57,429 nt of DNA from the NCBI GenBank assembly GCA_022826005.1, contig JAJDVT010000072.1:1-57429 (forward strand), given 5' to 3'. The first letter of the stretch is position 1; every line of letters starts with the position of its first letter. The translations under genes and the position numbers were made by a program. Shown in pieces: positions 3,731-36,324 of this stretch. The notes under the pieces are model-generated. The model had not been told where the DNA came from and did not search any database. It worked only from the letters and a program-made list of their open reading frames with translations. Source of the DNA: Gemmatimonadota bacterium (lineage in GTDB: Bacteria > Gemmatimonadota > Gemmatimonadetes > Longimicrobiales > Gaopeijiaceae).

Positions 3731-4270
3731 ATGACGACCGCAATCACCGCCCGAGTCGCTGTAACCGCCCTGCTCCTCGCCGGTGCCTGCGCGCCCGAGG
3801 CCGAGGCACCGGATCCGCCGGCCGAAACGCCCCACCCCGAAGAGGCCGCGGTTGTCGCCGCGGTCGAGCAGCTCTTCGAGGCCATGCGCACCGGCGACAG
3901 CGCGATGGCCCGGGCCGTATTCCACCCCGACGCCCGCCTCGGCCGCGCCGGCGAGGACGGCATCAGCTTTTCGTCCGCCGAGGGGTTCATCGGGATGATC
4001 GGGAGGCCCCGCGACGTGGTCTACGACGAGCCCATCTGGGACTGGACGGTGCAGATCGACGGCCGCCTCGCGCACATGTGGACCAAGTACGCCTTCTACC
4101 TGGGCGACGAGTTCTCGCACTGCGGCGAGGAGTCCTTCCAGCTCTACAGGAGCGACACCGGCTGGCAGATCACGCAGCTGATCGACACCATGCGCCGCGA
4201 GGACTGCTTCTACCCGCCCGGACGCGAGCCCGGTGCGGAGGAGGGCGCCGATCCCACGCCCGGGGTCTGA
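3731..4270 (+). CDS. NTF2-like (SnoaL/DUF4440-type) secreted protein
   Basis: A 179-residue protein. The start at 3731 gives MTTAITARVAVTALLLAGAC, a signal peptide with a plausible lipobox ending at Cys20. The mature part, after an Ala/Pro/Glu-rich linker, has the cone-shaped NTF2 fold pattern: an N-terminal helix (AAVVAAVEQLFEAMRTGDSA) and later strands DWTVQIDGRLAHMWTKYAFY and WQITQLIDTMRRE. Such domains in this phylum are often annotated as nuclear transport factor 2 family and have no fixed reaction. It lies 3 bases before the M28 peptidase start, so the two are probably co-transcribed. Confidence 0.75.
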   Translation: MTTAITARVAVTALLLAGACAPEAEAPDPPAETPHPEEAAVVAAVEQLFEAMRTGDSAMARAVFHPDARLGRAGEDGISFSSAEGFIGMIGRPRDVVYDEPIWDWTVQIDGRLAHMWTKYAFYLGDEFSHCGEESFQLYRSDTGWQITQLIDTMRREDCFYPPGREPGAEEGADPTPGV

Positions 4271-4273
4271 CCG

Positions 4274-6157
4274 GTGAGGCCGTCCCTCCTCGCCCTCGTC
4301 GCCCTGGCCGCTGTTCAGGCCTGCCTTCCCGAACCCGAACCGACCCGCACCGATCACGCGGCCCTGGCCGAGGAGGTGAAGGAGGCGATCACCACCGACG
4401 CGCTCATGACCTACTCCGCCGCGATCACGCGCCACGTGCGCCCGTCCGGCAGCCCCGGCGAGAACGCGGCGATCGACACCGTCGTGGCCGTGCTCGAGGC
4501 CGCCGGCGTCCCGGTCACGGTCCACGAACTCGACGCGTACGCCAGCGACCCCGTTATGGCTGCCGTCACCATCCCCGGCACGGACTTCGCCCCGCCAGCG
4601 ATCACCATGTCCTATTCGGCCTCGTCGGCGGGCACGGTCGGCGAGGTCGTCGACATGGGGGCGCTGCGCGACCTGCCGCGGCTCGAGGTCGGCACGGGGG
4701 AGCGCCTCGTCATCGAGGGCGAGGATTTCGGCGCCGACCTCCCCGACCTGAGCGGCAGGGTGGCCATCGTCGACGGCCAGCCGCGCAATGTGCCCACAAT
4801 CGTGCTGGAGCGCCTCGGCGCGGCGGCGGTCGTCTTCGTCAACCCCGAAGAGCGCCTCAACGAGCTGATCGTGACGTCGACGTGGGGCAGCCCGTCGCTG
4901 ATGAATCACCACCGGCTCCCGCGTGTTCCCGTGGCCCAGATCACGCGCAGCGCGGGAGAGGAGCTCCGCGCAAGGATGGCGGCCGGGCCGCTCGAGCTGC
5001 GCGTCGAGACCGAGGTCGCGACGGGGTGGAAGCCGATGCGGCTCGCCGTGGCTACGATCGCGCCGCCGCGCCCCGGGGACGCCCCGTTTGTGCTGCTCGG
5101 CGGCCACATCGACGGCTGGCACCACGGCGCCACCGACGAAGCCGCGTCGAACGCGGCGATGCTCGCGCTGGCGCTCGCCTTCCACGATGTGCGCGACCGG
5201 CTCCGCCACGCGCTGATGGTCGCGTGGTGGCCGGGCCACAGCAACGCGCGCTACGCCGGCTCGACCTGGTTCGCGGACGAGTTCTTCGCCGATCTGCGCA
5301 CGCGCGGGCTCGCGTACATGAACATCGACGGCGTCGGCCAGATCGGCGCAGCGCGCTTCGGCGCCACCGCGTCCGAGGCTTTCCGGGACTTCGCGGCCCG
5401 CGTGGTGATGGACGCCGAGGGCGCGGAGATCTCCCCGTCGCGGCCGGGGCGCAACTCCGACCAGGCCTTCAACGGCATCGGCCTCCCGCTGCTCCAGTTC
5501 AACCACACACGGCTCGCCGAGGACGGCGGCTACTGGTGGTGGCACACCCCCGACGACACCTTCGACAAGATCGACGCCGATGTCCTCAAGACCGACACCG
5601 ACCTCTACGCCGACGCCCTGGCCGAGATGCTGGCCGGTGAAGTCTACCCCGTGAGCGTGTCTGCCCAGGTCGAGGCGCTGGCCGCGGCGATCACAGCCCG
5701 GGAGGCGGCTTCGGGGGGCGCGCTGCAGCTGGAGGAGCACCTCGGCGACCGTATGAAACGCCTCCGGGACGCCGTGGCGAGGGTCGACGAACTTGCCGCG
5801 GACGGCGAAACGGACCCACTCGAGCAGCTGGCCGCACTGCGACCGTTACACCGCGTGATGTACGTCCCCCTGAACAACTACCACCCCGATCCGGGCATCA
5901 CACTGGGCCCCCTGCCCGGCCTGGTCCCGGCCCGGATCCTGTCCACGGAAGGTGCGGACGGTGACCGGCACGGCTTCGCGGCGCCGGTCCTCGCCCGCGA
6001 GCGCAACCGACTCATCGAGGCGATCGACGATGCCATCTTCGTCAGCACCTGGGTCACCCTGCTGGAGGATCTCGCCGACATGCGCGTGGCGGTAGACGGG
6101 CTAGTGGAGTACCAGCGGCAACGGGAGGAGGAGCAGGAGCAGGGGAACCCGCCGTGA
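4274..6157 (+). CDS. M28-family metallopeptidase-like lipoprotein with PA domain
   Basis: A 627-residue product read from a GTG start, with a short signal sequence and a candidate lipobox (LAAVQAC). A protease-associated domain spans roughly residues 110-230 (DLPDLSGRVAIVDG, AAAVVFVNPEERLNELI). The M28 catalytic core follows: GGHIDGWHHGATDEAASN near residue 275, AWWPGHSNARYAGSTW near 317, and a C-terminal HTPDDTFDKID near 423. In canonical M28 enzymes the second motif is a G-E-E carrying the general base and a zinc ligand. Here it reads G-H-S, and the D-N pair is D-E, so metal binding is altered or substrate choice differs. An exopeptidase role is likely but unproven. Confidence 0.85.
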   Translation: MRPSLLALVALAAVQACLPEPEPTRTDHAALAEEVKEAITTDALMTYSAAITRHVRPSGSPGENAAIDTVVAVLEAAGVPVTVHELDAYASDPVMAAVTIPGTDFAPPAITMSYSASSAGTVGEVVDMGALRDLPRLEVGTGERLVIEGEDFGADLPDLSGRVAIVDGQPRNVPTIVLERLGAAAVVFVNPEERLNELIVTSTWGSPSLMNHHRLPRVPVAQITRSAGEELRARMAAGPLELRVETEVATGWKPMRLAVATIAPPRPGDAPFVLLGGHIDGWHHGATDEAASNAAMLALALAFHDVRDRLRHALMVAWWPGHSNARYAGSTWFADEFFADLRTRGLAYMNIDGVGQIGAARFGATASEAFRDFAARVVMDAEGAEISPSRPGRNSDQAFNGIGLPLLQFNHTRLAEDGGYWWWHTPDDTFDKIDADVLKTDTDLYADALAEMLAGEVYPVSVSAQVEALAAAITAREAASGGALQLEEHLGDRMKRLRDAVARVDELAADGETDPLEQLAALRPLHRVMYVPLNNYHPDPGITLGPLPGLVPARILSTEGADGDRHGFAAPVLARERNRLIEAIDDAIFVSTWVTLLEDLADMRVAVDGLVEYQRQREEEQEQGNPP

Positions 6158-26046: not shown

Positions 26047-26867
26047 CGCCCGCGTCCGACTGGCGCGAAGCCCACCGCCAGGCCATCGAAGCCGGCCGCT
26101 CCACCTACATCGATCCCCGGACCGGCTTCCAGGTCTTCACCGAACTCGGGCTCAGGGCTCGCGGGCACTGCTGCGGCAGCGGGTGCCGCCACTGCCCCTA
26201 CCAGCATGAATCGATGGAGCTGGACAGCCGCGTCGCCGGCGCCCAGCAGCCCTCCTGGCTCACCGGCGCCGGGCCCTCCGACGATCCGGCCGATGTCCTC
26301 TTCTGGAGCGGCGGCAAGGACAGCTTCCTCTGCTACCGCGTGCTGACGCGAGAAGCCGTCCGCCCCGTCGTGCTCCTGACCACCTTCGACGCCGCAAGCC
26401 GCATCGTCGCCCACCAGGAGATCGGCGTGCGCCAGGTCGTCCGCCAGGCCGAGCACCTGGGGCTCCCGCTGCTCGGCGTTCCCCTGCACCCCGGCCACCC
26501 CTACGTCGACCGCATCCGCGAGGCGGTGGCGCTGGTCCCCGGCATCGCCCGCTTCGTCTTCGGCGACCTTCACCTGCGCCACATCCGCGAGTGGCGCGAC
26601 AAGGCATTCCGGGACCTCGCGGCCGAACGCGGCGCGACCCTCCACTTCCCCCTCTGGGGCGTTTCACCTGAAACGTTGATCGCGGATCTGGAGGCGAGCG
26701 GGGCCGTGTGCGAGGTCTCGGCTGTGACGGAACCGGCAGAGGACGTGATCGAGGTCGGCGAGCGGTTCGACCGGGCGATGATGACACGCCTGCCGGACGA
26801 AATCGACCCATTCGGGGAGAACGGGGAGTTTCACACGCTGGCGAAGGTGTGGGAGCGGCAGCAGTAG
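26043..26867 (+). CDS. DUF5522 / diphthine-ammonia-ligase-like (DUF71) fusion protein
   Basis: A 274-residue protein, GTG start overlapping the oxidase stop. Residues ~15-50 form a Cys-rich DUF5522-type module (YIDPRTGFQVFTELGLRARG, then CCGSGCRHCPY) with four or five Cys for metal binding. From ~80 an ATP-pyrophosphatase domain begins with the PP-loop FWSGGKDSFLCYR, followed by GVPLHPGHPYVDRI, FVFGDLHLRHIREWRDK and FPLWGVSPETLIADL, as in DUF71/ATP_bind_4 proteins. Eukaryotic and archaeal members amidate diphthine on EF-2, which bacteria lack, so the bacterial substrate is unknown. Confidence 0.8.
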   Translation: MTPASDWREAHRQAIEAGRSTYIDPRTGFQVFTELGLRARGHCCGSGCRHCPYQHESMELDSRVAGAQQPSWLTGAGPSDDPADVLFWSGGKDSFLCYRVLTREAVRPVVLLTTFDAASRIVAHQEIGVRQVVRQAEHLGLPLLGVPLHPGHPYVDRIREAVALVPGIARFVFGDLHLRHIREWRDKAFRDLAAERGATLHFPLWGVSPETLIADLEASGAVCEVSAVTEPAEDVIEVGERFDRAMMTRLPDEIDPFGENGEFHTLAKVWERQQ

Positions 26868-30615: not shown

Positions 30616-30618
30616 GAA

Positions 30619-30652
30619 TGTCATGTCGACATGGCAGAATGTAAGGTCGACA
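30619..30652. promoter_or_regulatory. Inverted TGTCGAC motif and shared TGTCATGT...AATGTAA element
   Basis: TGTCGAC (30624-30630) and GTCGACA (30646-30652) form an inverted pair spaced by 15 bases. The same stretch matches 40406-40433 at 20 of 28 positions (TGTCATGTnnACnTnnCAnAATGTAA). It lies at the left edge of the accessory island, before the first small gene. Confidence 0.4.
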
Positions 30653-30735
30653 GGTGATTATGTACTTGATGCACACCGGGAGACCCGCTAGCTTGCTGGT
30701 GTTGACCGCATGTCAGACCATCAAGGAGGCGGAAG

Positions 30736-30969
30736 ATGAGGACCGATCAGAGCACATGGCACACCGAAGGGGCAGAGTATTTCCACTTCTGTCTGACCTG
30801 TGTGACAGGCAGGGAAGCGATGCAGGCGGATGCCCGCCAATGGGGAACCGGCGGGAAGCTGCCTTGTCGGGACTGTCAGGAGTTGCGCGAACATGGTGCC
30901 TGCTTGGACCTTGGGCAGGTCCATGCGGTCATGGACGACCCTTGGTCACCGGAGGAAGGGGATGCCTGA
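30736..30969 (+). CDS. Small Cys-rich zinc-ribbon-like protein
   Basis: A 77-residue protein with a strong ribosome site (AAGGAGG). Two Cys pairs, CLTCVTG and PCRDC, are spaced ~24 residues apart, consistent with a small zinc ribbon; a last Cys lies in GACLDLG. It is acidic at the C-terminus. No family is recognised. It is the first gene of the accessory island; its 3' end overlaps by 41 bases the convergent reverse-strand gene. Confidence 0.6.
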   Translation: MRTDQSTWHTEGAEYFHFCLTCVTGREAMQADARQWGTGGKLPCRDCQELREHGACLDLGQVHAVMDDPWSPEEGDA

Positions 30970-31240
30970 GCTTCAGCACCCACACCGGGGGCGTGATGTC
31001 GTCCGCGAAGAAGGCCCATTCCTTGAGGATTCGCGTGATAGGCCACCCGAGGCTCAGGGCAATGCCCGCCACCCGCAACCCTTCGCCGACGGGACCGCGG
31101 AACGAAATGTACGGGCCGGCCGACGAGTGTCCCGGTCCACCTTGGCACGACTCGATCGTGTCCACCCCGTGCTCACGCAGCACATCGACGTAGGGCTGGA
31201 TGTCCGGATCGAGCACGGTGTCGGAGGCCATCTCGGTCAC
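30929..31240 (-). CDS. Small conserved hypothetical protein
   Basis: A 103-residue protein. The GTG start at 31240 shares its bases with the stop of the upstream small gene (GTGA), which fixes this start. The sequence VDVLREHGVDTIESCQGGPG, then YISFRGPVGEGLRVAGIALS and ITRILKEWAF has a regular alpha/beta pattern and a conserved-looking E-S-C-Q-G-G motif seen in small proteins of phage and accessory regions. The function is unknown. It ends inside the convergent zinc-ribbon gene. Confidence 0.65.
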   Translation of the reverse strand: MTEMASDTVLDPDIQPYVDVLREHGVDTIESCQGGPGHSSAGPYISFRGPVGEGLRVAGIALSLGWPITRILKEWAFFADDITPPVWVLKLRHPLPPVTKGRP

Positions 31241-31398
31241 TTGGCATTGATCGAGGCGGTCCCGTTATGCTCGGCGACGACCCGATCGACCTCCTGCATG
31301 ACGCGCTTGGGGAAGACGGCCTCCATGATCTCGCGGTCGGTCTTCTGGGCGATGTTCCGAGGCACCTTCCGCCGCCGTTTCGTCTTTCGCCGCTTCAC
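31237..31398 (-). CDS. Small basic protein, 53 residues
   Basis: GTG start at 31398 preceded by GGGGAGGG at a good distance. The product begins VKRRKTKRRRKVPRNIAQKT and continues with an amphipathic helix (DREIMEAVFPKRVMQEVDRV), ending in AEHNGTASINAK. The strongly basic head suggests nucleic-acid contact. The TGA stop overlaps the GTG of the next reverse-strand gene, so the two are translationally coupled. Its 5' end faces the + strand gene at 31433, leaving a 34-base divergent spacer. Confidence 0.55.
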   Translation of the reverse strand: MKRRKTKRRRKVPRNIAQKTDREIMEAVFPKRVMQEVDRVVAEHNGTASINAK

Positions 31399-31432
31399 GC
31401 CACCCTCCCCATCCTTGAAAGGAACCGAATCA

Positions 31433-31669
31433 ATGCGTGAGTCACCCGGTCGCGAAGTCGTCTACGAAATCCTAGAGGTCGTCGCTCTAGCACCCAGAAA
31501 TCCTCATGATCCGTTGGGAGTAATACGACTTCGCACCGATCGGGGCTGGTATCGATTCTCGGCACAGAAGCAGGCGCTTCTCCTACTCGCTGGTAGATGT
31601 GTCGAGTTGGCGCACCACCTGCCGCCGCATGACGAGAATGATCCCGGGGAGCCGTCTGAGATGAACTAG
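31433..31669 (+). CDS. Small hypothetical protein, 78 residues
   Basis: Start at ATG 31433 after AAAGGA. The sequence REVVYEILEVVALAPRN, GVIRLRTDRGWYRFSAQKQA and LLLLAGRCVELAHHLPPHDE alternates strands and a helix and has balanced composition typical of a real small protein. It lies 11 bases before the transposase gene in the same direction, whose ribosome site (TAGGAG) overlaps its stop, so they are likely co-transcribed. No family recognised. Confidence 0.55.
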   Translation: MRESPGREVVYEILEVVALAPRNPHDPLGVIRLRTDRGWYRFSAQKQALLLLAGRCVELAHHLPPHDENDPGEPSEMN

Positions 31670-31680
31670 GAGAGTCAGCC

Positions 31681-32613
31681 ATGAAGAGAGTCAACCTCGT
31701 TTCGCTGTTGGACCAATACAATACGGATGATAAGTGCCGGGACGCCTTGGAGGCAATTCGATGGCCGGACGGCGTGGCCTGCACCCGGTGCGGGGACACG
31801 GAGGTGGACGAGGTGCCCAGCCGCAACCAGTGGCGCTGCCGGGGGTGCAAGTACCGCTTCAGCGTCATGGCCGGGACGATCATGCACCGCAGCCACCTGC
31901 CGCTTCGGAAGTGGTTCCTCGCCATCTACCTGATGTGCGAGTCGAAGAAGGGGATGAGCGCGAACCAACTCAAGCGGTCGCTCGGGTGCCAGTACAAGAC
32001 CGCGTGGTATCTCTGCCACCGCATCCGCGAGGCGATGGGCAACGACCCGTTCCACGGGCCGACCCTGTTCGGGGTGGTCGAAGTGGACGAGACGCTCGTC
32101 GGCGGCCGCGTCAAGGGCCGTGAGAACGCCCACAGCAACAAGCATTGGGTGGCCGGCGCGATCGAGCGGGGCGGCAAGGTGCGGATCGAGCGCATCCCGA
32201 ACGTCCGGAAGGACACGATTCAGGGATTCGTGAACCGCACCGTGAGCCCGGACGCGGAAGCCATCTACACCGACGAGTTGCGGTCCTACATCGGCGTCGA
32301 GACGGACACCAGACGCCACGAGACGGTGCGGCACAGCGAAGACGAGTGGGTGGTGGGCGACGTCCACACGAATAGTGTGGAGGGGGTGTGGAGCCTCTTC
32401 AAGCGTTCCATCGTGGGTTCGTTCCATAAGATGTCGCTCCGGCATTTGGACCGCTACCTCGACGAATTGGAGTGGCGGTTTAATAACCGCCAGAACCCCT
32501 ACATCTTCCGCGACACGCTGGCGCGGATCATGAACACCGATCCGCTGGAGTACGAAGACCTGATCGCGTCCGAGGACGTCGAACAGCCCGAGCCGAAGAC
32601 GGAGGCGGCATGA
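31681..32613 (+). CDS. IS1595/ISXO2-like DDE transposase
   Basis: A 310-residue protein. An N-terminal zinc ribbon (CTRCGD ~34, CRGCKYRFS ~57) is followed by HRSHLPLRKWFLAIYLM and the helix-turn-helix-like MSANQLKRSLGCQYKTAWYL. The ISXO2-type DDE domain has VEVDETLVGGR (~132, first Asp), IYTDELRSY (~196, second Asp) and NSVEGVWSLFKRSIVGSFHK (~231, Glu). Length and motif order are those of complete IS1595-family transposases. No terminal inverted repeats were found at either side, and the gene sits in an operon with small genes on both sides, so it may be a domesticated or passenger-bearing form rather than a simple IS. Confidence 0.88.
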   Translation: MKRVNLVSLLDQYNTDDKCRDALEAIRWPDGVACTRCGDTEVDEVPSRNQWRCRGCKYRFSVMAGTIMHRSHLPLRKWFLAIYLMCESKKGMSANQLKRSLGCQYKTAWYLCHRIREAMGNDPFHGPTLFGVVEVDETLVGGRVKGRENAHSNKHWVAGAIERGGKVRIERIPNVRKDTIQGFVNRTVSPDAEAIYTDELRSYIGVETDTRRHETVRHSEDEWVVGDVHTNSVEGVWSLFKRSIVGSFHKMSLRHLDRYLDELEWRFNNRQNPYIFRDTLARIMNTDPLEYEDLIASEDVEQPEPKTEAA

Positions 32614-32732
32614 GCAACCAGAAGAAGAACGACACCATTTGGGTGCTGGCCACCATCGCGTTCTTCCTGTTCTGTCTCGGGATGCGGATCTACTGGAACT
32701 GGACGATCAAAGGGAATCCGTTTACCGACTGA
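32610..32732 (+). CDS. 40-residue single-span membrane protein coupled to the transposase
   Basis: The ATG overlaps the transposase stop (ATGA). The product is MSNQKKNDT, then a hydrophobic segment (IWVLATIAFFLFCLGMRIYW), then NWTIKGNPFTD. It has a basic-polar head and one clear transmembrane helix. A stem-loop with a T/C-rich tail follows. No family recognised; it could be a holin-like, toxic or regulatory micro-protein. Confidence 0.6.
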   Translation: MSNQKKNDTIWVLATIAFFLFCLGMRIYWNWTIKGNPFTD

Positions 32733-32741
32733 AGGTGGCCC

Positions 32742-32780
32742 GGCCGGGAAGCTGTCGAGGGCTTTCCCGGCCTCTCTCTT
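32742..32780 (+). terminator. Stem-loop terminator with CTCTCTT tail
   Basis: GGCCGGGAAGC (32742-32752) pairs with GCTTTCCCGGCC (32761-32772, one bulged T), 8-nt loop, followed by TCTCTCTTACC. It closes the transposase/membrane-protein transcript. It resembles the hairpin at 33019-33048. Confidence 0.65.
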
Positions 32781-32826
32781 ACCACCGCGCCCGCGTTTGG
32801 GCGACGCCACCCCACAGGAGGAAGGA

Positions 32827-32988
32827 ATGGACCCCATGAGCACTGTAGACACCCTCCGTGCGCACCTGAAGCGCGCCGAGAAGACCCTCGCGTATGTCCA
32901 GACCACGGGCCGGGACAGCACGTCCTATGTGCTCGACGTGCTGGACGCCCGCAGACGGCTGGAGGAGGCCGTGAAGAAGGCAGCCTGA
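32827..32988 (+). CDS. Small helical protein, 53 residues
   Basis: Start at ATG 32827 behind AGGAGGAAGG; ATG 32836 is an alternative. The sequence STVDTLRAHLKRAEKTLAYV and YVLDVLDARRRLEEAVKKAA predicts two amphipathic helices forming a helical hairpin. It is flanked by a stem-loop on each side, so it is a monocistronic unit. No family recognised. Confidence 0.55.
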   Translation: MDPMSTVDTLRAHLKRAEKTLAYVQTTGRDSTSYVLDVLDARRRLEEAVKKAA

Positions 32989-33018
32989 CTCTCGGGGGTT
33001 GTTTCCCACCCCCCCCAA

Positions 33019-33057
33019 GGCCGGGGACGTGTCACAGCGTCTCCGGCCTCTCTCATG
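33019..33057 (+). terminator. Stem-loop terminator, sibling of the one at 32742
   Basis: GGCCGGGGACG (33019-33029) pairs with CGTCTCCGGCC (33038-33048) with one G-T wobble and an 8-nt loop, followed by TCTCTC. Stem ends and tail (GGCC...GGCCTCTCTC) match the 32742 hairpin. Confidence 0.6.
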
Positions 33058-33123
33058 GCCCCCCTGCTGGATAACGGGGTGCTGTTCACCGACCCCCAGG
33101 GTCACATCCATGGGAGGGATCCT

Positions 33124-33339
33124 ATGAGCAAGCAGGACAAAGCCGACACCGTCATAATCAGCCGGACTGAGTACGAGAACCTGCTAGCCAACCAAGAGAA
33201 ACTCAAGCATCTGGCGAGTGACTTTCGAGTTCGGCTTGAAGCTCACGGTGCTCAGATTCAAGCTCTGAGAGAGAAGCTATCGACTCAAGCCAAGAAAGCC
33301 ATTGGTGGTGGTCATTCTTGGCCGCCTTCTGAAAACTGA
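33124..33339 (+). CDS. Small coiled-coil protein, 71 residues
   Basis: Start at ATG 33124 after GGGAGGGA. DTVIISRTEYENLLANQEKL followed by DFRVRLEAHGAQIQALREKL predicts one long coiled coil. Its last 137 bases overlap the reverse-strand gene 33203-33616 in antisense. Both frames look protein-like, so one may be a shadow; the good ribosome site and short spacing after a terminator support this one. Confidence 0.45.
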   Translation: MSKQDKADTVIISRTEYENLLANQEKLKHLASDFRVRLEAHGAQIQALREKLSTQAKKAIGGGHSWPPSEN

Positions 33340-33616
33340 TCAGAAGGTTGATGAACCCTTCTCGCTCGTGATCGGAACGGGGGAAGTGCTGGTCCGCCAG
33401 ATCGTGAAACTTCCGGCCGTTGTCCAGCACACAGGGATCGTTCTGTAGCTTTCCGATGATTGCCGGTAGTCGGGCGTCAGCGACTTCGAGAAGCGTCATG
33501 TTCGTCTCTTTCGGTGACGTCGCTTCTTCCAGCGATTTCCGGTAGAAGGCGATGAGGAAGGCCATGGCCTTCAGTTCACCGAGGAAAGACTTGGTGGGTT
33601 GGAGATCGTTCGACAT
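33203..33616 (-). CDS. Helical hypothetical protein, 137 residues
   Basis: Start at ATG 33616 behind AAAGGAG. MSNDLQPTKSFLGELKAMAF begins a protein that is mostly helical, with ARLPAIIGKLQNDPCVLDNG and HDLADQHFPRSDHEREGFIN in the middle and a C-terminal coiled coil (LSELESEHRELQAELESHS). It is the last gene of the reverse operon that begins with the lipoprotein at 34973, 72 bases downstream of the membrane-protein gene. Unknown function. Confidence 0.65.
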   Translation of the reverse strand: MSNDLQPTKSFLGELKAMAFLIAFYRKSLEEATSPKETNMTLLEVADARLPAIIGKLQNDPCVLDNGRKFHDLADQHFPRSDHEREGFINLLISFQKAAKNDHHQWLSWLESIASLSELESEHRELQAELESHSPDA

Positions 33617-33688
33617 TTCTTGCTCCTTTCGGAATGTCGGATGTAGGCGGGTGTCTCGGTGGCAGCCGGGGCACCCGCCGCTTGGGTG

Positions 33689-33982
33689 TCAGTTCTTGAC
33701 TGTTCCGTCCGTTCGGGCCTCCGCGTCAACGACGCCAGCGGGTTCTGCGTCATCCTTCGTGCGCTGCTTTCGGTCTTGCCGAGCCAAGAGAAGAACCATG
33801 GCAAGAATCGCCGATGGATACAGGGAGGGCTCCACGCCGTCCACATGTGCGATCCACAGACCCGAAAACCAGTTGGTGAGGGCGAAGAGGATAACGGCCC
33901 ACCGCCCCCATTTGCCACACCAGCGCCGTGCCGCTTCCCACAGGAGGACGAAGAGGCCTGCGACCATGAGGAAGCCGATCAT
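33689..33982 (-). CDS. Small membrane protein, 97 residues
   Basis: The ATG overlaps the stop of the upstream gene (ATGA). MIGFLMVAGLFVLLWEAARR, WGRWAVILFALTNWFSGLWI and LYPSAILAMVLLLARQDRKQ give three hydrophobic spans, and a charged tail follows (TKDDAEPAGVVDAEARTDG). It is paired with the next small membrane protein and probably forms a complex with it. No family recognised. Confidence 0.65.
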   Translation of the reverse strand: MIGFLMVAGLFVLLWEAARRWCGKWGRWAVILFALTNWFSGLWIAHVDGVEPSLYPSAILAMVLLLARQDRKQRTKDDAEPAGVVDAEARTDGTVKN

Positions 33983-34233
33983 TTGGTGGCCTCTGCGGTC
34001 GGTGGAGCTACGTTCAGTCGGGTCAGGGACACCACGGCCGCAAGGGTGGAGATGGCCAAGGCATCACTGCCCCAGCCTTCGACCCATGCCTTCCAAGTCA
34101 CGATCCACAGCAGAACCGCCCAGCAGGTAACGGCGATCCGCCCGCCACTCCATCGGCGCAGGCACAGGCACGGGAGCACGATCGCCAAGGTGGCCAACAG
34201 CGCCTCGCCGAGCCAGAGGGCGTCGTTCGGCAT
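33979..34233 (-). CDS. Small membrane protein, 84 residues
   Basis: Starts 2 bases after the lipoprotein gene. Hydrophobic spans are ALLATLAIVLPCLCLRRW, IAVTCWAVLLWIVTWKAW and ALAISTLAAVVSLTRL, so it has about three spans and a short tail. Coupled by overlap to the 97-residue membrane protein. The order lipoprotein, two small membrane proteins, helical protein is reminiscent of lysis or secretion cassettes, but nothing sequence-specific supports a function. Confidence 0.65.
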   Translation of the reverse strand: MPNDALWLGEALLATLAIVLPCLCLRRWSGGRIAVTCWAVLLWIVTWKAWVEGWGSDALAISTLAAVVSLTRLNVAPPTAEATK

Positions 34234-34235
34234 TT

Positions 34236-34973
34236 CTAGGCTCCTTCCCGGGCGAATTCACAGTCCACACCGAGTCCGTACTCGATCCAGATCACCCCAC
34301 CGGGGACCGGCCGACCGTTCCAAGTGATCCCGTCCCTGACCCAAGGCCCTGCCCACCTCGCCACCGGGCACTCGGCATGACGTGTCCGGCAGTTGCGGAA
34401 CCGCCGCCAATCGCCCATGTCGTCACCGTTGTGCACAAAGCACTCCTGATCTTCCAGCAGCCGCGGATCAAGCGGGTCTGTGCTGAGATCGGCCGGCTTC
34501 TCCCACGGACAACTCACACCGACCTTCACCAGCCGGTAGTCGTAGTCGAACGGCCACACCGCCTCGGCGCCGGACCCGTCAACACCCTTCCACTCGCCAA
34601 ACGGCACCCGGCGCCACATGCCGACGATCGTGCAGCCGGCCCGCTCACGCGCGCATCCGGTGAACGTCTTCCAGGCCGACAGGTCGTTGCCTCGGCCGGG
34701 GAACACGCAGTCCGGTTCCGGCTGGATCGTGTTGTGAGTGCCTTCTGGCCCGGGCCATCCCGGCCCCGGTGCGTACCCGTACAGCCAGAACGCCTCATCC
34801 GCGTTCGAGGACAGCCCGACCAGCGATCGGAGCGACCGCATCGTGTCGGGGGCCTCCATCATGGCGATCACTTCGGCGTGCGCCGCCTCGCTCTGATCCG
34901 GCGCGGTCGAGTCGCAGCCAGCAACGAGCAATGCGAATAGAACGGGTGGGGTCATGGTCCTCATCATCGGCAA
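34236..34973 (-). CDS. Cys-rich lipoprotein, 245 residues
   Basis: GGGAG precedes the start. The signal MPMMRTMTPPVLFALLVAGC ends in a clear lipobox. The mature part carries about eight further Cys (DCVFP, TGCARERAGCT, VSCPWE, DQECF, RNCRTRHAECP, VDCEF), suggesting disulfides, and Trp-rich segments (WLYGYAPGPGWPGPEG, GMWRRVPFGEWKG). The double element WKTFTGCARERAGCTIV and WRRFRNCRTRHAECPVA is an internal repeat of ~110 residues. First gene of the reverse operon. No family recognised. Confidence 0.7.
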   Translation of the reverse strand: MPMMRTMTPPVLFALLVAGCDSTAPDQSEAAHAEVIAMMEAPDTMRSLRSLVGLSSNADEAFWLYGYAPGPGWPGPEGTHNTIQPEPDCVFPGRGNDLSAWKTFTGCARERAGCTIVGMWRRVPFGEWKGVDGSGAEAVWPFDYDYRLVKVGVSCPWEKPADLSTDPLDPRLLEDQECFVHNGDDMGDWRRFRNCRTRHAECPVARWAGPWVRDGITWNGRPVPGGVIWIEYGLGVDCEFAREGA

Positions 34974-35291
34974 CTCCCTGTGTCGTGGGTTGGCAATCCC
35001 CCCGACACACGGGGCACGGGTGTCGGGCCGTTTGCCAACTCCACGCGAGGAAGTACCGCGAGAGGTCCCGTCTATTCGGCCCCTGGGGCCGCCGGGAGCT
35101 ACCCGACGACCCCTTTCATGGGCCTGTTGTATTCAACGGGCGACCCGACATGGGCCTCCGTGGAGTTGGCAGGAGGGAAGGTGGGGGACGCTCCACCGTA
35201 GCGCAAGGGGTTTCGCTCCTTCATGAAGGGGCGAAACCCCCAATCCATAGGCGTATTTGACGCCACAGAGAGGAGGGAAGTACCATGCAGC
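34974..35291. promoter_or_regulatory. Structured divergent intergenic region
   Basis: This 318-base noncoding stretch separates two divergent operons of the island. It holds an 8-bp inverted repeat CCCGACAC/GTGTCGGG (35001-35008, 35020-35027), a 12-bp inverted repeat GCCAACTCCACG/CGTGGAGTTGGC (35034-35045, 35159-35170), and a 34-bp near-perfect palindrome (35207-35240). It must contain promoters for both sides and could encode a small RNA. Confidence 0.6.
35207..35240. repeat. 34-bp near-perfect palindrome
   Basis: A 15-bp stem with one G-T wobble and a CATG loop: left arm starts GGGGTTTCGC, right arm ends GCGAAACCCC. It lies 50 bases before the membrane-protein gene at 35292 and lacks a T-run, so a regulatory or protein-binding site is as likely as a terminator. 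Confidence 0.7.
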
Positions 35292-35780
35292 ATGGACATT
35301 CGACGAGCAGCACACACCGTAGCCTCCATAGTGGGAGGGGGTGCCTTCCTCTACGGTCTGGAGGTGCATATGTGGGGTGAAGACATTCCCCTATGGGTGT
35401 ACCTCGCTTTCTCCGCCTCCTGCGGTATGATCGCGTGGCGACTGGGCCGAAAGCCGGACCCCGACCGGGGCAAGACCTACTGGGAGAAGCGACTGCCGGA
35501 GCTGGAGGGGCTGATCGAAGTCTTGCGGGCGTGCGAGCCGCGCGAGACATTGGCCCCGAAGCACCAGATCGCGATACACAGACTCGCGCGTGACCTTGAC
35601 CGACTCGGGCTGGAGCATCCGCCAACAGACCGGGTGCCGCTGGCGCGTGACCCCGTGCTACGCCGGATCTGGGAGCATTGCAGCCCCTTTCCTCCTTCTG
35701 AGCCCGGCGCCGACCGCTGCTCAAGTCAAGCTCGGCGTCACGGGCGGATTAAACCTTGCTTCGGTGGACGTTTCGAGTGA
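35292..35780 (+). CDS. Membrane-anchored hypothetical protein with fused C-terminus
   Basis: ATG 35292 lies after GAGGAGGG. MDIRRAAHTVASIVGGGAFL and DIPLWVYLAFSASCGMIAWR are two membrane spans; a charged helical cytoplasmic domain follows (TYWEKRLPELEGLIEVLRAC, HQIAIHRLARDLDRLGLEHP). From about residue 125 the frame enters, out of register, the outer-membrane beta-barrel gene, and the residues become Arg/Ser/Pro-rich, so the natural C-terminus has probably been lost at the island junction near 35675. Confidence 0.55.
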   Translation: MDIRRAAHTVASIVGGGAFLYGLEVHMWGEDIPLWVYLAFSASCGMIAWRLGRKPDPDRGKTYWEKRLPELEGLIEVLRACEPRETLAPKHQIAIHRLARDLDRLGLEHPPTDRVPLARDPVLRRIWEHCSPFPPSEPGADRCSSQARRHGRIKPCFGGRFE

Positions 35781-36324
35781 ATCCGCCTTTGTCCCCGACT
35801 TCGAATCCGTCACGCGATTTTCGCTCGGTCTGTCGGCGACGATCCCCGTGTCCGAGACCTGGGGAGTTCAGCTGGCCGGCGGCTATTCCCAGAAGGGTGC
35901 GATGTCCGCATTCACCGAGGAGGGCGCGGACGTCGAATCAACGCTGAAGATGGACTACATCGAGCTGGCCGTGCTCGGAATGCTGAACCTCCCCCTGTCC
36001 GGTGAACGAGTGTCGGCACACCTCGTCGCCGGACCGGCGCTCGCCCTCGAGTCGTCCTGCGACGTGTCCGCCAAGGCAACCTTCATGGGAACCGATTTCG
36101 AAATCAACGAGGGCTGCGACGACGGCGACGTGATTGACCGATCAAACTTCGACTTGGGCCTGGCCGCAGGCGGCGGAATCGAGATCGGCCTGTCCGACGC
36201 GCTGGGCGTGTCGCTAGGCGTCCTCTACACTTTCGGACTCCTGGACATCGACAAGGAAGACAGCGACTCGCTGAAGCATCGGGTGCTGAGTGTGCGGGTC
36301 GGGTTGGTGTATTCGGTTGGGTGA
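35647..36324 (+). pseudogene. Outer-membrane beta-barrel protein, 5' end replaced
   Basis: The mature part is a typical small porin-family barrel: QVKLGVTGGLNLASVDVS, SLGLSATIPVSETWGVQLAG, GGYSQKGAMSAF, NFDLGLAAGGGIEIGLSDAL and a final strand VRVGLVYSVG, about 200 residues. Only the end of a signal peptide is present (AAPFLLLSPAPTAAQ). Upstream of it the frame has no basic signal head and no ribosome site; the nearest start is a GTG at 35647. The original start was probably lost when the island inserted. Paired Cys (SSCDVSA, EGCDDGD) flank a barrel loop. Confidence 0.6.

Follow-up and report, generated by a model that had tools for sequence, protein, structure and literature searches.

The stretch of DNA analysed here, referred to as the window, is a 57,429-nucleotide contig of a Gemmatimonadota bacterium (JAJDVT010000072.1; the whole of contig G000:C35 in a 4.85-Mb assembly), and it carries at positions 30653–35675 what is, with very little doubt, an insertion sequence of the IS1595 family with passenger genes and a truncated right end. 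Upstream of its reverse lipoprotein operon lies a sequence (35018–35171, minus strand) that is almost certainly a real structured RNA and probably a cis-acting leader of the kind found before genes for exported proteins; this RNA was overlooked in the original prediction, an earlier reading of the same DNA that had described an accessory island of unnamed small genes. For the insert as a whole, a truncated passenger-bearing IS1595 element with a leader-RNA surface-gene cassette is, in our judgement, a highly probable explanation. The principal features are listed below, R1 being the covariance model of the leader RNA.

30653..30677, plus strand: left terminal inverted repeat, GGTGATTATGTACTTGATGCACACC (copies in G008:C115 and G010:C89)
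31681..32613, plus strand: IS1595-family transposase, 310 amino acids (PF12762, PF12760, NF033547)
34236..34967, minus strand: Cys-rich lipoprotein, 243 amino acids (66% identical protein in the G008 copy)
35018..35171, minus strand: structured leader RNA of the lipoprotein operon (R1 118.8 bits, E 1.7e-21; folding z −4.6)
35178..35206, minus strand: promoter-like TTGCGC-N17-CACCTT (positioned as the TTG-N-TANNNT motif of other copies)
35292..35675, plus strand: 3′-truncated gene of a transmembrane protein, distal in the element (G008 copy 96% identical at the DNA level)
35675..35676, no strand: deletion junction between element and beta-barrel gene (three-way comparison with L026 and L025)
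35676..36324, plus strand: outer-membrane beta-barrel gene lacking its first codons (PF13568, 1.7e-16; intact start in G010:C29)

When congeners were searched with the intergenic region separating the lipoprotein gene from the forward membrane-protein gene, dozens of short matches came back, several of them adjoining IS1595 transposases of just ~40% identity. The RNA they define is ~150 nt long and comprises a long P1 helix, a conserved internal loop, a capped hairpin and a pseudoknot (GUCGGGY/RCCCGRC). The sequence of P1 varies among copies, with pairing always kept: the mean energy was −31.9 kcal/mol for each copy's own strands versus −15.7 kcal/mol for swapped strands in 27 copies, and −30.8 versus −12.9 kcal/mol in 64 non-redundant copies (mean identity 61%), of which 60 paired better with their own strand than in every swap. 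The covariation score was 0.406, compared with 0.157 after shuffling (0/500). The pseudoknot, which lies outside the model, was paired in 99.2% of cells with the variants UG, UA and CG, and its U-G pairs fix the strand of the RNA, which is therefore the minus strand in the window; RNAalifold gave −26 kcal/mol on this strand versus −7 kcal/mol on the other. A structured 5′ leader RNA with covariation, as sought in a riboswitch, is thus present. A conserved core, a pseudoknot, the leader position and possible alternative pairing by the ribosome site are held in common with riboswitches and protein-binding mRNA leaders, from which the RNA differs in that its downstream genes are united by export and not by a metabolic pathway.

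R1 gave 79 matches in 27 of the 121 genomes of the bacterial family; across 395 genomes of the phylum, 8 genomes of a second family were added and 363 were without a match, a patchy distribution as expected of mobile DNA. A strict pattern, made of two core motifs with ~23 fixed bases (chance expectation ~0.4 by our own estimate), found 85 stretches in 84,980 species genomes, and R1 matched all 85, nearly all at full length. These came from Gemmatimonadota, Acidobacteriota, Alpha- and Gammaproteobacteria, Nitrospirota, Nitrospinota, Binatia, Chloroflexota, Latescibacterota and others. Judged by title, the sources were mostly sponge metagenome-assembled genomes, one title being explicit; the prefixes RHO, IRC, CAR and COS agree with sponge species of PMC8163846, and we infer that the title prefixes map to sponge hosts. 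The RNA core was not found in viral contigs, nor was the RNA found on plasmids by blastn.

In 26 of 65 copies P1 was preceded, at constant spacing, by a TTG-N-TANNNT promoter, against 1.1 in shuffles; start codons mostly followed 27–60 nt past the RNA, with ribosome sites. By a simple rule of hydrophobicity and lipobox, which called a signal peptide or N-terminal membrane helix, 37 of 46 high-confidence downstream genes had predicted exported products, as against 62 of the 287 other open reading frames (ORFs) of the same loci (p = 1.5e-14); a lipobox was present in 18/46 and 13/287, respectively (p = 7e-10). The products are otherwise unrelated, with Ig-like, PEGA, TbpB-like, LRR, CsgG, CARDB and inverse-autotransporter domains each occurring in 1–3 of 41. 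Divergent pairs of the leader RNA, driving two surface genes outward from one intergenic region, were seen at L123 3610–4360, L128 35–604 and L124 16069–16930. In the window, a near-perfect 17 + 17 nt palindrome (GGGGTTTCGCTCCTTCA/TGAAGGGGCGAAACCCC; 35207–35240) abuts the −35 of the leader promoter between divergent genes.

Six copies of the RNA within the family, and at least 6 in other phyla, sit in elements that have terminal repeats and 8-bp duplications. IS1595 transposases occur in 20 of 80 RNA loci, and in 2 or 3 loci the transposase is instead IS1-like, scoring under the curated cut-off. Leader-RNA cassettes in elements with 8-bp duplications were recorded at L183 1616–4213, L233 713–3784 and L247 1563–5698, the transposases of L183 and L247 being IS1-like (60–75 bits, cut-off 100).

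The identity of the element itself follows from its transposase, its repeat and its relatives. The original prediction had named an IS1595-like transposase, and the profile matches bear this out (Pfam PF12762, 2.8e-35, and PF12760, 1.6e-11; NCBIfam NF033547, 6.6e-60), giving a DDE transposase with zinc ribbon. The terminal repeats of the element begin GGTGATTATGTACTTGAT; an identical, inverted copy of the window's left repeat forms the right end (26408–26432, minus strand) of a related element that disrupts an LRR gene in G008:C115, and a copy with a single mismatch forms the left end of the element in G010:C89. In this bacterial family ten relatives, the smallest of 1,159 bp (transposase alone) and the largest of 6,370 bp, are bounded by matching terminal repeats and flanked by perfect 8-bp target duplications; passenger genes differ between related elements. 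Repeats at both ends are thus found in relatives and only the left one in the window copy, which we file as a truncated member of the IS1595 family because its right repeat has been deleted. Passenger-bearing IS1595 insertion sequences (NF033547, PF12762/PF12760) share with it the transposase family and domains, terminal repeats starting GG, 8-bp duplications (in the relatives) and passenger genes; the window copy differs in lacking its right end and in its unnamed passengers, among them the structured leader RNA, of which no description as an IS1595 passenger was found in the literature searched. The transposase would mobilise everything between two GGTGATTATGTACTTGAT-starting repeats, and the insertion point is directly after the gene of a Big-domain surface protein. 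In the genome of the window, a further fragment of a related element sits at a contig end (G000:C139 1–129; 90% identical to 32923–33060). A tRNA-Gly gene (63 bits) whose anticodon, ACC, is unusual lies within a related element (L030 505–579; G010:C71), and tRNA-Ser and tRNA-Leu genes lie close to other near transposases (L051, L056).

The GC content of 30653–35675 is 62.6%, versus 68.5% in the 10 kb leftward and 65.2% in the 10 kb rightward, so the predicted ~5 kb low-GC accessory insert with many small ORFs is borne out; the dip is real, and weak on its right side. Among 23 congeneric genomes searched for the uninterrupted site, G010:C29 has left-flank homology to 30505 and resumes exactly at 35676 in the beta-barrel gene, the intervening segment being only 172 bp and containing the barrel start codon, while in G008:C4 the left flank matches up to 30652 and then continues differently. 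These comparisons uphold the accessory nature of the island; the right edge had been placed exactly at 35675, and the left edge is 30653 rather than the proposed 30616. The insertion site (window 30618–30652; L027 about 4240–4280) falls within a short palindrome, which reads TGTCATGTC...GACATGACA in G008 and may be a repeat or terminator that attracts insertion.

The loss of the beta-barrel start, also predicted, is real. In congener G010 the start is intact and the gene begins ATGCGAACCGTCTCCTCACTC; homology in the window starts ~23 nt into the coding sequence, at 35676, past the barrel start, and the window gene therefore lacks its first 7 or 8 codons. The G008 copy extends ~235 bp past the point equivalent to 35675 and then ends in a terminal repeat, which the counterpart of the 35292–35675 transmembrane ORF reaches. 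The window element breaks off inside this gene of a distal membrane protein, and no extra bases separate it from the barrel gene; a predicted ORF from GTG 35590 crosses the join in frame. Judged from these alignments, the right end of the element is lost by deletion at 35675/35676: a later deletion would have taken the right ~235 bp of the element, its right repeat and the start of the beta-barrel gene. With the right end and repeat deleted, the window copy is therefore probably immobile. In G005:C225 (3279–3437) the left-flank gene runs straight into the 3′ portion of the beta-barrel gene, which marks a different deletion at this spot.

Whether the RNA acts in cis is best weighed against a free trans-acting small RNA that merely adjoins surface genes, as sRNA-Xcc1 (RF02221) is said to be. 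The leader RNA has no Rfam match at the gathering cut-off, and this orphan is its only related family: the best two RF02221 matches in the 121 genomes are two copies of the leader RNA (26.3 and 25.8 bits), the window copy scores 23.2 bits and further copies 23–24, all short of the cut-off of 53 bits, and 5 copies align on the same strand with model positions 1–87. Both RNAs have a helix interrupted by an internal loop, in which AAUACAA faces GAAUA, and an outer helix GNCGGG/CCCGGC, and both are present on mobile gene cassettes; the leader RNA is unlike sRNA-Xcc1 in its long variable P1, its GGGUAGCUCCC hairpin and its pseudoknot order, and it precedes exported-protein genes whereas sRNA-Xcc1 precedes symE. 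We take the relationship to be a distant one, short of membership in RF02221. That sRNA-Xcc1 is an 88-nt small RNA mapped by Northern blot in Xanthomonas (PMC2996969) speaks for a trans-acting product; however, it is itself part of a widespread integron cassette, in which it precedes symE (PMC12444791), no terminator follows the leader RNA, start codons with ribosome sites come ~30–60 nt on, and export is much commoner among the downstream genes than among controls, so we consider a trans-acting RNA unlikely. The conserved element might instead work as DNA, for example as a recombination or transposition site like the attC hairpin, given its frequent place within mobile elements and its strongly palindromic nature; yet the many U-G pairs of one strand would turn into A-C mismatches in the opposite strand, the promoter is always on one side and the genes on the other, and the elements end elsewhere, with ordinary terminal repeats, making this reading very improbable. 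Integron attC sites show the opposite of a variable outer helix around a conserved core, and attC was rejected because the variable and conserved parts are reversed here.

For the island, the original prediction had suggested a phage satellite or integrative element, or else a defence or lysis module. Several micro-genes are present, and the N-terminus of the 71-residue ORF is weakly like T7 gp5.9 (PF25708, 20 bits, under the cut-off of 24.5), as a satellite might have it; but the sole mobility gene is the IS1595 transposase, the element contains no integrase, replication, packaging or interference gene, its ends are IS1595 terminal repeats, and viral relatives were lacking for the RNA core and, in IMG/VR viral contigs, for the 103-residue protein and the lipoprotein, so that a satellite or other integrative element can be given next to no credence. 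That a mobile element carries a small lipoprotein alongside membrane proteins would suit superinfection exclusion or lysis only by analogy; PADLOC gave no match for 10 proteins and PHROGs no credible one, positive evidence was not found, and we regard a defence or lysis function of the reverse operon as very unlikely.

How the leader might work can be sketched. The reverse operon of lipoprotein and membrane proteins would be transcribed from its own promoter through the ~150-nt leader. In many copies the RCCCGRC strand has an alternative partner, a hairpin just before the ribosome site, and this choice between GUCGGGY and the hairpin suggests a translational switch: the leader would toggle lipoprotein translation between two folds, answering a ligand or protein. 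That such a pseudoknot/hairpin switch controls translation is conceivable from the pairing patterns, though rather doubtful. The unit of promoter, leader and gene would form a mobile, pre-regulated surface-protein cassette common to symbionts. More broadly, we tentatively propose an undescribed class of ligand- or protein-sensing leaders that marks exported-protein genes as one regulon across unrelated symbiont phyla and is spread by IS1595 and IS1 transposons in sponge microbiomes, a proposal we find credible but somewhat short of probable. Several observations weigh against the overall reading of a truncated element with a leader-RNA cassette. The window copy keeps a single terminal repeat, and its right flank, with one side of any target duplication, is lost; its −10 (CACCTT) is poor; the export rule is simple, and by it 9 of the 46 downstream genes are not exported; and many RNA copies lie outside any recognised element, partly because contigs end nearby. 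Neither a U-tailed terminator after the RNA nor clear occlusion of the ribosome site was found, so the switching mechanism is speculative.

The remaining features of the element are small.

30736..30969, plus strand: Cys-rich passenger ORF, 77 amino acids, no Pfam or PHROG family found (homologue in G008:C10; mismatches by codon position 11/11/32)
30929..31240, minus strand: passenger ORF, 103 amino acids, no family (homologues in G008:C10 and G016:C81; 18/21/79)
31237..31398, minus strand: small basic protein, 53 amino acids, transposase companion (adjoins the transposase in 6 other copies)
32610..32732, plus strand: ORF of 40 amino acids with a single transmembrane segment (93% identical DNA in G010:C71)
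32742..32773, plus strand: stem-loop 1 (fold; alignment with stem-loop 2)
32827..32988, plus strand: helical ORF, 53 amino acids (3 homologous copies; 5/5/18)
33018..33050, plus strand: stem-loop 2 (folding z −5.75)
33124..33339, plus strand: ORF, 71 amino acids (one weak relative in 121 genomes)
33203..33616, minus strand: helical ORF, 137 amino acids (one weak relative in 121 genomes)
33689..33982, minus strand: membrane ORF, 97 amino acids (reading frame with ribosome site; overlaps next start)
33979..34233, minus strand: membrane ORF, 84 amino acids (reading frame; no relative in 121 genomes)

Seven ORFs (those of 77 and 103 residues, the two of 53, the transposase, the lipoprotein and the transmembrane protein) have diverged homologues with mismatches mostly at codon position 3, a pattern that supports these seven as genes. 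The 71-, 137- and 84-residue ORFs, with none or one weak relative, are putative genes predicted from their reading frames. As had been anticipated, the passenger proteins had no convincing family in Pfam, NCBIfam, PHROG or PADLOC searches; structure prediction of the lipoprotein from two sequences was unusable (predicted local distance difference test, pLDDT, 35). The two sibling stem-loops noted earlier are likewise confirmed, with 36 identical alignment columns and folding z of −1.8 and −5.8; they were rejected as terminators, not being T-tailed in a terminator scan.

A passenger-bearing IS1595 element is in itself ordinary. The notable part is an RNA of ~150 nt whose core and structure are conserved across phyla and which stands before surface-protein genes that are otherwise unrelated. 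It would be useful as a marker of mobile surface genes, would put the orphan sRNA-Xcc1 into a testable family of cis leaders, and would open a way to study how symbionts from different phyla that live in one host control their surface display.

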